This document shows positions 158-7,116 of a stretch of 38,785 bases of DNA, piece by piece. Each line of letters starts with the position of its first letter. Positions within the stretch are counted from its first letter, which is position 1. A model generated the notes under the pieces. That model searched no databases. It saw only the letters and a program-made list of their open reading frames with translations, and was not told where the DNA came from. The position numbers and the translations under genes were made by a program. The stretch comes from Alphaproteobacteria bacterium (GTDB lineage Bacteria; Pseudomonadota; Alphaproteobacteria; Micavibrionales; Micavibrionaceae). The stretch covers positions 1 to 38,785 of the forward strand of contig JAGNKE010000007.1 of assembly GCA_018000295.1 (NCBI GenBank), given 5' to 3'.

Positions 158-829
158 TTATTTGAGAAATAAGAGTGAGAAAACTTCACAAAATGTTTTT
201 ATTGAGGGAATACTAAAAAAATAAAAACCTACTGTGTATAAAATAATCAAAGACCATCTTGTTTTTGTATAATCACAATTAAGCATATTATAAAAAAGAC
301 TCAATCCTGCTCCCTTATTGTTCTGAATTTTGTCATACATACTTGGCCATTTACCATCATAAGAAACCAAATTACGGTCGTTTGCTGACATATAATCAAA
401 TTCTTCATCAAAATAATGGTGTTTATTTTCGTCGATGTATTCAGCAATTTGAGCAATCTGATACTCAGTTAATAAATCTTGTTCCCCCAAGAGATATTCT
501 GTAGAAGATCCATACTTTTTAATCTCTAGGGGACAACGTATTTGGTAGAGTAGAGAACCAAGTGCGATAAGAGATAAACCGAAGTAAGCCTGTAAAATAT
601 GTGTTGGTATTTTAATATTTTTCCCTGTATCAAAACCATTAGAAAACGCGTCACTAAAAGCACCGTGCAGGTCAAAATAAGGCAATAAACTCTGATTAAA
701 TACTATCCAATACCCCAAAAAAGGGATCAATATAGTAGATTTCATGATTTGTGCATTGCTAAGGCCGCGAAAAGTTGTCCATACAAGCTTCTGATCCATA
801 CGTCTTAAGAAATTTATAAAAATATGCAC
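158..829 (-). CDS. Hypothetical membrane protein, AT-rich
   Basis: A 223-residue protein that I do not recognise. Three hydrophobic stretches look like membrane segments: about residues 31-52, 82-102 and 192-213. Between the second and third is a charged, probably cytoplasmic region of about 90 residues. The start is a GTG at 829, preceded by AAAGGG at good spacing; an ATG at 799 is possible but has a poor ribosome-binding site. Base composition is very AT-rich (13 G/C in the 60 bases 241-300), unlike the GC-rich Sco/thiC genes beside it. It directly adjoins the IS1595-like end, so it is probably horizontally acquired. It has no recognisable catalytic motif. Confidence 0.6.
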   Translation of the reverse strand: MHIFINFLRRMDQKLVWTTFRGLSNAQIMKSTILIPFLGYWIVFNQSLLPYFDLHGAFSDAFSNGFDTGKNIKIPTHILQAYFGLSLIALGSLLYQIRCPLEIKKYGSSTEYLLGEQDLLTEYQIAQIAEYIDENKHHYFDEEFDYMSANDRNLVSYDGKWPSMYDKIQNNKGAGLSLFYNMLNCDYTKTRWSLIILYTVGFYFFSIPSIKTFCEVFSLLFLK

Positions 830-1645: not shown

Positions 1646-1681
1646 TTCCTTTCAATCCGCCCACCTTGGGGCCATTCAAGT

Positions 1682-3624
<1,943 letters not shown>

Positions 3625-4008: not shown

Positions 4009-4560
4009 ATGTTCAAAACCAAGGAACGTTCGCAAAAACTCAGGGAGGCATTAAAGACGCACCTCTTCCCCGCGCTCGTCAAACGCGGCTTCACCGCGCA
4101 GAAACACTCCTCCCTGTTTTATAATTTTTTCCGCGTTGAGGAAAAACGCGTCACCGGAATTTGTGTGCAGTGGGACCATTATCACCGCCCCAAATTCGTG
4201 GTGAATTTCCACTTCGCGCCGCTGGTGAAAGATGCCGCCGGTCGCCCCGGCTTCATCCCCCTGAGCGGCGAGCAGATGGGGAAGTGGCAGGAGGCGGAGA
4301 AAATCACGAAAGTCTATGGCGTTCCTTCCGGCCGCCTGCACGCCGGAACGGGTTATGAGCGTTGGTTCAAATGCCCGTTTCTGGCTTATACCCTCAATAA
4401 AAGCGTCTGCGAAAAAGTGGCGCAGGATTGCGCCGCTCTCCTCCCCTGTATGGAGGAATGGATCGCGGCGGCGGATGATGAACGCCTTTCGCGTGAATGG
4501 TTCAAGGATCATATTTCCTACTTCCCGCCGTTGGGAGTAAAACAAGAGGCGGAGGAGTGA
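4009..4560 (+). CDS. Hypothetical protein (possibly DUF4304-like)
   Basis: A 183-residue soluble protein. It has no signal peptide or membrane segment. Residues about 8-75 (KLREALKTHLFPALVKRGF, then an aromatic-rich beta region with QWDHYHRPKFVVNF) loosely resemble DUF4304-type proteins, but this is a weak recollection. It is GC-rich like the thiC region and lies 22 bases after yjdM, so it could be the last gene of that transcript. Its stop codon TGA overlaps an ATG (TGATG) that opens a 44-codon frame broken by the AT-rich ATPase insertion, so a translationally coupled partner may once have followed. Confidence 0.65.
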   Translation: MFKTKERSQKLREALKTHLFPALVKRGFTAQKHSSLFYNFFRVEEKRVTGICVQWDHYHRPKFVVNFHFAPLVKDAAGRPGFIPLSGEQMGKWQEAEKITKVYGVPSGRLHAGTGYERWFKCPFLAYTLNKSVCEKVAQDCAALLPCMEEWIAAADDERLSREWFKDHISYFPPLGVKQEAEE

Positions 4561-4694
4561 TGGACACCGAGCGGCCCGTTCAAGAAAAATTGATCGGGAA
4601 GGATTGGAGGGTGTGGTATTTTAGTGCAATCCGAAGATCACCAGCATGTAGCGTAGTTTGGGAAAAAAAGGTGGAGATATTTCATGACTCATAA
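4560..4694 (+). CDS. Small ORF, possible remnant of a gene cut by the insertion
   Basis: A 44-residue frame begins at the ATG that overlaps the preceding stop as TGATG, the usual layout of translational coupling. It runs into the beginning of the ATPase gene in another frame, ending at 4694. The first 50 or so bases have the local GC-rich composition; after about 4610 the DNA turns AT-rich. I read it as the head of a native gene truncated when the ATPase region inserted, but it could equally be non-coding. No family recognised. Confidence 0.25.
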   Translation: MDTERPVQEKLIGKDWRVWYFSAIRRSPACSVVWEKKVEIFHDS

Positions 4695-6477
4695 ATTAAC
4701 AAAAATCTCTATAAAGAGTCATTTTATCCCTGATTTTAGTTGGGAATCTATCCCCGCTTTGTCTGTTATTACAGGAGTAAATGGCTCAGGAAAAACGAAG
4801 CTATTAGAAGCAATAGATTTAACCATAAGAAAACAAGAAGAGAATATTAAACTGAATTATACAGTCGAATTAGAACAACAAATAAACCCAAAAGAATTTG
4901 GATATATTCCTTGGCAAAGAAATTTTTCCGGCCTGGAAGGCGCATTTTATGCTGAATTCCAAAGCGAATTGCAAAATTTCATTGCAAACGCAAAGCAAAA
5001 TTCAATAAGACATAACAACGATAGAAATTTATACAACATACAAGAAGAATTAAGAAAAATTTTAAATCAAGAAGTTCAAGGTAGGCCAGAAACCTTCTAT
5101 GAAGATGAAGTATTTCTTGAAGCTTTTGAAAAAGCTTGGATAAGCGTAAAAGACATCGTCCAAAATCAACAAATAGGAAGACTATTTCTAAGTTATCAAA
5201 AGCGCAAAGAGAAATTAATTCTCACGGCATTTGACGAAAAAAAACAAACTGACGAGGCTCAAATAAAAGACATTATAGGAGTTCCGCCATGGGATGCAAT
5301 TAATGATCAATTTAAAAAGTATAATTTTAAATATGAAATTAATAGACCAAAGGAATCCCAAAGTAGATACGAAGTCAAATTTACGCTTATAAGTAATCCT
5401 GATAATAATGTACACTTCAGCAATCTTTCATCAGGTGAGCAAATGATAGTTATGCTCATACTGTGGTCATTTAATGAAGAGTTGGCACAAGTAAAAAAAT
5501 TACTTTTGTTAGACGAGCCAGATGCTCACCTGCATCCTGAAATGGGGCTAATGTTTAAGGAAATTATTTCCGAAATAATCGTAAAAAAATTTGGGGTTCA
5601 AGTCATCATGACCACACATTCTCCAACCACTTTATGTTGGTTTGAGGAGGAAAATATTTTCTTAATGGATAAATACAAGGGGATCATAAAATCAAATAAA
5701 CAAGAAGCAATGAGCAAGCTAACTTCAGGCCTTGTTTTTGTTCATCAGAATTTTAAAATTGTCGTTGTTGAAGACGAAGATGACCGCAAATTTTACCAAA
5801 AAATATTTGATAACCTATTGCTTAACAATTTTTTAAGTAAAACAGACAGGCTTGTGTTTCGTTCAGTGAACTCAAAAAAAGAAGGAGGAGGAAAAACAAA
5901 AGTAATTGAAATTGGAAGACAATGGAAGGAATTGTCTGTTAACACCGAGATCGCCAATTTAATATGCGGTTTAGTAGACAAAGATAATGATAGTAATGAA
6001 GATTTGCCGCAAAATGTAAAGGTGTTAAGTAGTTATTGTTTTGAGAACTTCTTAGCTGACCCATTGCTTATTTTTGCTTTGCTTGTCCAAGAGGGCGAAC
6101 CAAGTATCACGAAATTTTCACATGATAAAATTGGGTACCAACACGGTGAAGAATATCGTTTCAAAAACGGGGAAATAAGAGAAGCACAAAAAATCATAAA
6201 CTTTATCTTAGAAAAACTTTTACAAAATGCAGAATGCAATATAACTCAAGAACCCTTTCAGAATAAAAAATCCATCGAATATATAAACGGTTTAAGTGTC
6301 GAGCTACCGGAAATGCTACTTACTGAAAGTGGAAAAGACAAAATTTTATCTCTATACAAAAAGGCTTTTGCATCTAAAGCATCGAATATTAACAAAAATA
6401 CACTCACCGACATGATGATAAAAACTCATCTAATTCCTAAGGATCTTGTTGACATTTATAGACAGCTTCTTAATTAA
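4684..6477 (+). CDS. AAA/ABC-type ATPase fused to a DUF4435 (TOPRIM-like) domain; candidate PARIS-like defence protein
   Basis: A 597-residue two-domain protein. The N-terminal half is an SMC/ABC-like ATPase: Walker A GVNGSGKT (31-38), a helical insertion (about 45-225), signature LSSGEQ (248-253), Walker B LLLLDEPDAHLHP (273-285) and switch His312 in TTHSP. The C-terminal half (about 358-597) has an acidic pattern expected of DUF4435/TOPRIM folds: VVVEDEDD (360-367), GLVDKDND (429-436) and CFENFL (452-457). In the two-gene PARIS system AriA is such an ATPase and AriB a DUF4435 effector, and fused versions are known; OLD-type nucleases share a similar plan and are the main alternative. The ATG has GGTGGAG 7 bases upstream. 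Composition is AT-rich (19 G/C in 4861-4920) between GC-rich neighbours, which indicates transfer. No partner gene is present, so it is probably self-contained. Confidence 0.8.
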   Translation: MTHKLTKISIKSHFIPDFSWESIPALSVITGVNGSGKTKLLEAIDLTIRKQEENIKLNYTVELEQQINPKEFGYIPWQRNFSGLEGAFYAEFQSELQNFIANAKQNSIRHNNDRNLYNIQEELRKILNQEVQGRPETFYEDEVFLEAFEKAWISVKDIVQNQQIGRLFLSYQKRKEKLILTAFDEKKQTDEAQIKDIIGVPPWDAINDQFKKYNFKYEINRPKESQSRYEVKFTLISNPDNNVHFSNLSSGEQMIVMLILWSFNEELAQVKKLLLLDEPDAHLHPEMGLMFKEIISEIIVKKFGVQVIMTTHSPTTLCWFEEENIFLMDKYKGIIKSNKQEAMSKLTSGLVFVHQNFKIVVVEDEDDRKFYQKIFDNLLLNNFLSKTDRLVFRSVNSKKEGGGKTKVIEIGRQWKELSVNTEIANLICGLVDKDNDSNEDLPQNVKVLSSYCFENFLADPLLIFALLVQEGEPSITKFSHDKIGYQHGEEYRFKNGEIREAQKIINFILEKLLQNAECNITQEPFQNKKSIEYINGLSVELPEMLLTESGKDKILSLYKKAFASKASNINKNTLTDMMIKTHLIPKDLVDIYRQLLN

Positions 6478-6486
6478 TTTAAACCC

Positions 6487-7116
6487 ATGACCTCAACCCA
6501 ACTCCTCCTCGCGGCGCTGCCGTTTTTCTCCTTCTTCCTCGTTGCCTCCATCACGCCGGGGCCGAACAATTTCATGCTCGCCGCCTCGGGCATGAATTAC
6601 GGCTATCGCCGCACCGTGCCGCATATGCTGGGCGTGGCGGTGGGCTTCTGCTCGCTCATGCTGCTCTGTATGCTGGGCGTCGGTGCGGTGTTCCAGACCT
6701 TTCCGGCGCTGCAATTCGCGTTAAAGACCTTCGCCGCCCTCTATCTTCTCTATCTCGCCTATCAGATGGCGCGGGAGGCGCTCTCCCAACCGTCCGCCGT
6801 GGACGGCACAAACGAAAATCCGGCCCGCAAGCCGATGAGCTTCACACAGGCCGCGCTCTTTCAATATATCAACCCGAAAGCGTGGGTGATGGGCATCACC
6901 TCCACCGCCACCTTTCTGCCCGCCGCCGCGCTGCTCTCGGAAAAAACCGCCTTGATCGTGCTGGCCGTGCTGTTCATCGGCGTGCCCTGCATTATCATCT
7001 GGACCCTGTTCGGAACGGTCATGGCCGTTCTTTTTACCTCCGATAAGACCCGCAAGCTCGTGAATTTGACGCTCGCCCTCCTGCTGGTCGCCACAATCCC
7101 GATGATGGTGCTGTGA
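6487..7116 (+). CDS. LysE/RhtB family amino-acid exporter
   Basis: A 209-residue inner-membrane protein with about six hydrophobic helices. The N-terminal SITPGPNNFMLAASG block (about residues 21-35) is the hallmark of the LysE/RhtB family, which exports amino acids or related compounds; the substrate cannot be read from sequence. It starts 9 bases after the AT-rich ATPase gene and returns to local GC-rich composition, so the insertion boundary is close to 6478-6486. Its stop overlaps the start of the small lipoprotein gene (TGATG), suggesting coupled translation. Confidence 0.88.
   Translation: MTSTQLLLAALPFFSFFLVASITPGPNNFMLAASGMNYGYRRTVPHMLGVAVGFCSLMLLCMLGVGAVFQTFPALQFALKTFAALYLLYLAYQMAREALSQPSAVDGTNENPARKPMSFTQAALFQYINPKAWVMGITSTATFLPAAALLSEKTALIVLAVLFIGVPCIIIWTLFGTVMAVLFTSDKTRKLVNLTLALLLVATIPMMVL

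Follow-up and report, generated by a model that had tools for sequence, protein, structure and literature searches.

A gene of 597 amino acids (aa) in a member of the Micavibrionaceae (Alphaproteobacteria; GenBank assembly GCA_018000295.1, contig JAGNKE010000007.1) encodes an ABC/OLD-type ATPase and a DUF4435 domain in a single protein. It is likely a PARIS-like abortive-infection system, complete in itself and borne as cargo at a chromosomal site of variable content. We put the probability of this reading at about 0.68. We analysed the first 38,785 nucleotides of the contig (hereafter the window), in which the open reading frame (ORF) at 4684-6477 on the forward strand begins with ATG and has no internal stops. 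Sequence shows the fused architecture, the conserved residues of catalytic type and the changing content of the site, and the AriB-type TOPRIM fold of the DUF4435 domain is a prediction. PARIS itself is described both as a two-gene cassette (AriA and AriB) and as a single-gene fusion (PMC9122126).

Domain identity

The ATPase half scored over the Pfam cut-offs for AAA_21 (66.5 vs 27 bits) and AAA_15 (47.7 vs 32.1 bits), and DUF4435 (PF14491) came just over its own (27.8 vs 27 bits) when the C-terminal half was scanned alone. The best PADLOC model was AriAB (81.3 bits, positions 295-532 of 694), followed by ATPase-Toprim_I-B (75.8 bits) and AriA (67.3 bits). For the predicted fold of the nuclease-type domain, the best match was AriB, the tRNA-cutting PARIS toxin, and the C-terminal half has a predicted AriB-like TOPRIM fold, though the TM-scores are only 0.29-0.33. 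A viral structure library gave no match at E<=0.001. The Pfam, PADLOC and fold results bear out the original prediction, made from the DNA letters alone, of a single-gene ATPase-DUF4435 fusion of the PARIS type, which had proposed these Pfam profiles and a structure comparison as checks.

The second PADLOC model, whose label we take to denote retron type I-B, raises another explanation: an ATPase-TOPRIM retron effector that acts with a reverse transcriptase and multicopy single-stranded DNA (msDNA). A 436-aa reverse transcriptase is encoded on the same contig, but it is the sole one found in the genome, lies about 58 kb from the fusion gene and is absent from the neighbours scanned. Rfam searches of the window and of the 10 kb surrounding the reverse transcriptase also detected no retron RNA at gathering thresholds. 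With its partners lacking, we rejected the retron, now a very remote prospect. The reverse transcriptase (genome G000, contig C29, about 64.2-65.5 kb; positions 4163-5473 of locus L116) matches RVT_1 at 78.6 bits and contains YADD and a VTG stretch, in which it resembles retron reverse transcriptases.

Conserved residues

Each motif named in the original prediction (Walker A, LSSGEQ, Walker B, H-loop, VEDEDD, VDKDND and FENFL) is present in the translation, with LSSGEQ at residues 248-253, LLLLDEPD at 273-280 and H312 within TTHSP. We aligned 69 family sequences, including the fusion protein, to which the others are 28-70% identical. Since the key residues are invariant across all 69 (Table 1), the motifs are not there by chance. 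G429, D459 and P460 are likewise invariant, and position 364 is D in 62/69 sequences, G in four, A in two and S in one.

Table 1. Features of the fusion gene and its flanks, with positions in the window.
Feature	Position	Strand	Details
ATPase-DUF4435 fusion gene	4684..6477	+	597 aa, GC 0.32
N-terminal ABC/OLD-type ATPase half	4684..5706	+	residues 1-341
Walker A GVNGSGKT	4774..4797	+	residues 31-38; G31, N33, G34, G36, K37 invariant (69/69)
ABC signature LSSGE	5425..5439	+	residues 248-252; L248, S249, G251, E252 invariant (69/69)
Walker B LLLLDE	5500..5517	+	residues 273-278; D277, E278 invariant (69/69)
H-loop H312	5617..5619	+	invariant (69/69)
C-terminal DUF4435/AriB-type TOPRIM half (predicted fold)	5707..6474	+	residues 342-597
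TOPRIM acidic motif VEDEDD	5767..5784	+	residues 362-367; E363, D367 69/69, D364 62/69
TOPRIM DxD motif VDKDND	5974..5991	+	residues 431-436; D432, D434 69/69, and 9/9 with stand-alone DUF4435 proteins
DUF4435 motif FENFL	6040..6054	+	residues 453-457; E454 69/69, and 9/9 with stand-alone DUF4435 proteins
SGKD motif	6328..6339	+	residues 549-552; also in stand-alone DUF4435 proteins of L094-L096; G550 69/69
5' flanking hypothetical gene, left edge of cargo site	4009..4560	+	75% identical in G001
3' flanking LysE-type exporter gene, right edge of cargo site	6487..7116	+	71% (G001) and 74% (G002) identical

A second alignment of nine rows set the C-terminal half beside eight stand-alone DUF4435-type proteins from other genomes of the phylum. 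Each of these adjoins an ORF of 355-476 aa, which we took as its AriA; PADLOC was run on one of the eight assumed pairs (L096), giving 75.9 bits for AriB and 114 bits for AriA, and two of the stand-alone proteins (L107 and L108) score under the DUF4435 cut-off. E363, G403, D432, D434 and E454 are invariant in all nine rows; D367 is not. The conserved TOPRIM acidic residues expected of PARIS are therefore present as E363, D432 and D434. PDB sequence searches with the C-terminal half and with stand-alone DUF4435 proteins (a profile of three, and two others) returned no AriB, so the correspondence of E363 to AriB E26 is inferred from the fold and the family alignment. In AriB itself, lysines K60 and K64 contact the tRNA.

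The acidic pattern had been read as a departure from the usual EG-x-D start of OLD TOPRIM domains. That reading is off in one detail: the spacing from E363 to D367 is still the E-x3-D of the general TOPRIM motif. Nor does ED-x-DD mark a distinct branch: VED is also found in the stand-alone proteins of two-gene loci L095 and L096 (IED in L094), and four of the 69 family members have VEG.

A cargo site with changing content

The gene was described as an AT-rich, horizontally acquired gene between GC-rich ones, and both parts of that description fit the data. Its GC content is 0.32, compared with 0.55 in the preceding and 0.60 in the following ORF. Across 40 largely non-overlapping window ORFs of at least 90 aa, only two have a GC content of 0.32 (the fusion gene and the ORF at 158-829), the other 38 ranging from 0.43 to 0.65. 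The 3' edge is sharp: nine bases separate the stop codon from the start codon that follows, and a spacer of 123 bases precedes the gene. Promoter and terminator scans stayed at chance level. The other AT-rich ORF (158-829, reverse strand, 223 aa) is possibly more foreign cargo; it matched nothing in Pfam or PADLOC, and its one NCBIfam hit was weak, far under the cut-off.

We searched 57 relatives besides the source genome. No full-length homologue occurs in any of the 36 that share its genus or family; two of these, G014 and G026, have short partial matches, none longer than about 160 residues. G040, from another family of the order, contains a clade member. Same-genus genome G001 keeps the hypothetical gene and lysE with a different 263-aa gene between them, in a stretch of GC about 0.33-0.38. 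That AT-rich gene (L033, contig 68, 2385-3176) has no Pfam or PADLOC match. In G002, ORFs of 242 and 82 aa lie between thiC and lysE, an interval from which yjdM and the hypothetical gene are missing. The G008 interval is longer and includes yjdM along with further ORFs. As these three intervals hold different ORFs, the content of the site changes. With no full-length homologue in the 36 genomes and a different AT-rich gene at this place in G001, the fusion gene looks acquired. The other cargo is not recognisably defence: among nine cargo-interval ORFs, three match Pfam at E<=0.01 (DUF3658, Thioredoxin_4, and RNase H below its cut-off) and six match nothing. In this genus, further accessory genes could be sought between the hypothetical gene and lysE.

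No direct repeat pairs the two edges of the site, and a tRNA scan of the window found none. The neighbours scanned with Pfam encode ThiC, YjdM, a hypothetical protein, LysE, a second hypothetical protein and an MFS transporter. Directly before thiC lies a TPP riboswitch (1676-1774, forward strand, 61.3 bits), as expected for ordinary thiamine regulation.

Relatives and their surroundings

A protein search scored 7,997 candidates, 539 of them at E<=0.001. Among the best 120 of these, the closest relative whose source is named comes from Micavibrio (53%). Of 385 genomes drawn evenly from the class, at least three, including the source genome, match at E<=1e-60; this is a lower bound, as three candidates were scored per genome. 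No tblastn match to the fusion protein at E<=1e-5 was found in 50,697 phage records, and seven PHROGs families matched on the ATPase side, six of them of unknown function. A literature search on Micavibrio with antiphage or defense systems found no paper naming Micavibrio among those listed.

In a tree of 32 rows (17 from the query family, one canonical AriAB, six other fused proteins, seven two-gene systems joined end to end and one OLD-like protein), the query family forms one side of a branch with support of 100/100. Support for the two-gene group is weak (57/83), and canonical AriAB (L106) and the OLD-like protein (L109) have long branches that meet, making their placement unsure. The tree, together with the score of 81 vs 364 bits to the AriAB model, supports placing the protein in a distinct branch of ATPase-DUF4435 fusions. 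That part of the original prediction stands, without the motif argument once made for it. A second fused clade (L097, L099, L100, L101, L102 and L110; 533-559 aa) was also recovered with support of 100/100, apart from the query family.

The distance from Walker A to the signature is 217 residues in the fusion protein, with a family median of 210 and a range of 153-224 (68/69 sequences with both motifs found). It is 217 in L011, and 260, 267 and 303 in three further clade members (L002, L039 and L040). Canonical AriAB has 278 residues, and the four AriA-like proteins in which both motifs were located, those of L094, L095, L096 and L103, have 324, 345, 364 and 331. Other AriA-like proteins (L098, L104 and L107) are short, at 355-386 aa. 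Judged from these sequences, a compact sensor is a feature of the query's part of the clade, and the wider clade varies; this weakens it as a mark of the whole clade.

The Pfam rules for fused forms given in the 2022 PARIS paper combine AAA_15 or AAA_21 with DUF4435 (PMC9122126), and may already have caught some of these relatives. The branch is not described in the titles and abstracts of the PARIS paper and reviews found by our literature search, whose scope mostly excluded subscription papers.

Seven plasmid records contain a match, and we looked at five. The Croceicoccus relative comes after type I restriction genes, and the Caballeronia relative lies between two TIR-domain genes (with a small hypothetical gene on one side) near an integrase. 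The large TIR-domain genes at this Caballeronia locus (L037, 4267-8610 and 11923-16323) and the integrase beside them likely form a defence cluster. The Planktothrix, Rhizobium and Citrobacter relatives, the last only partial, have no clear defence genes adjoining, and each stretch includes toxin-antitoxin genes. Forty-seven viral-contig loci also matched. The five examined (L045 and L047-L050, ten ORFs) each have at least one phage-type gene, including integrase, terminase, baseplate or virion protein. From the sequence contexts, members of the family seem to occur more as single genes than as parts of islands.

These surroundings bear on another explanation, in which the gene maintains a mobile element or serves in conflict: a toxin-like ATPase-nuclease would kill on element loss or in competition, with phage defence as a side effect. 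The changing cargo of the site and the relatives on plasmids and viral contigs agree with this, and a commentary places PARIS itself among toxin-antitoxin systems (PMC11455837). However, no element genes occur among the neighbours scanned, and the complete sensor ATPase kept in 69/69 sequences would fit triggered activation. We consider this explanation improbable.

Weighing the evidence

Several observations weigh against a PARIS-like defence. The DUF4435 match is marginal, spans 100 of 238 profile positions and is not listed at E<=1 in the full-length Pfam scan. The AriAB match is partial; canonical AriAB (692 aa) scores 363.8 bits over positions 2-681. The TM-scores to AriB are low, and the ATPase half does not discriminate, as PtuA, SMC and AriA tie. 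Two relatives sit among housekeeping genes (L093, with amidase, DNA polymerase I, DprA and topoisomerase I; L011 likewise, judged by eye), and five other cargo-interval ORFs have no PADLOC match (E<=0.001). The association with viral contigs is weak evidence, being partly built into a collection chosen for such contigs. The genome has no HSDR_N match over the cut-off (22.5 vs 25.1 bits), and hence no type I restriction enzyme to guard was found.

The first PDB sequence match of the ATPase half is also an OLD nuclease (E 1e-4), with AriA tied behind it (1.5e-4). The main rival is a class 1 OLD nuclease: an ATPase-TOPRIM protein from a single gene whose substrate would be DNA instead of tRNA, whether or not it serves in defence. 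Modules of an OLD-type ATPase with TOPRIM had already been reported as conflict systems, and they are found repeatedly next to BREX (PMC12839542). With AriAB as the best PADLOC model and AriB as the best fold match, we regard an OLD nuclease as unlikely, if less so than the other rivals.

Proposed mechanism

In PARIS, the AriA hexamer is reported to carry three AriB; Ocr and other triggers make AriA release AriB, which then dimerises (PMC11455837; PMC12409363). Freed AriB cuts tRNA-Lys and some other tRNAs, is likely a two-metal enzyme and is inactive as E26A (PMC11455837; PMC12409363). By analogy, the fusion protein is likely a phage-triggered suicide switch. The ATP-bound ATPase half would keep the nuclease half inactive within an oligomer until a phage protein binds the ATPase half; the PARIS counterparts of such a protein are anti-restriction proteins, Ocr among them. 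Release cannot be the switch, since the AriB part is covalently joined in the fusion, and our best guess is that the nuclease halves would pair while tethered. The paired site (E363, D432 and D434 with metal) would then cleave RNA, with host tRNA the most likely target, and so halt translation and phage growth.

The clade may even form a separate class of ATPase-AriB fusions, in which the nuclease is never released, a tethered AriB pair acts within one oligomer and, in the query's part, a compact sensor replaces the longer AriA. We hold this only tentatively and consider it doubtful, as the varying sensor length in the clade and the existence of short AriA-like proteins lower its odds. If true, this would decide whether fused AriAB has a mode of action different from those of two-gene PARIS and class 1 OLD.

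Comparison with known systems

Retron OLD-type effectors and Gabija GajA likewise combine ATPase and TOPRIM in one protein, but in the regions scanned, neither a reverse transcriptase nor a retron RNA nor a helicase adjoins the fusion gene. For Gabija, a class 2 OLD system, the UvrD-like helicase GajB is not among the six scanned neighbours, and we rejected it on this ground. The OLD nucleases (class 1 from T. scotoductus, 6p74; class 2 TOPRIM domains, 6nk8 and 6njv) share the same single-protein combination.

Two-gene PARIS differs in that its AriB is separate, whereas the AriB part of the fusion is not releasable. Identity over the nuclease domain is 17-20%, and the 217 residues from Walker A to the signature compare with 324-364 in L094, L095, L096 and L103, an imperfect contrast given that AriA-like L098, L104 and L107 are short.

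Canonical fused AriAB has the same order of ATPase and DUF4435/TOPRIM in a single protein, is the source of the best PADLOC model and shares the YCFEN(F/Y)L motif. In contrast, the fusion protein covers about a third of that model, is 26% identical to L106 over 255 columns, has a shorter span from Walker A to the signature (217 vs 278 residues) and lies on a separate branch, whose join to AriAB is unsettled in the tree. The solved PARIS mechanism needs free AriB to be released and to dimerise, which a fused protein cannot do, and according to an OLD review it is not clear if fused AriAB constitutes a class in its own right (PMC10568477). That question becomes testable with a well-bounded, single-gene family whose catalytic-type residues are intact, and the family adds another candidate tRNase.
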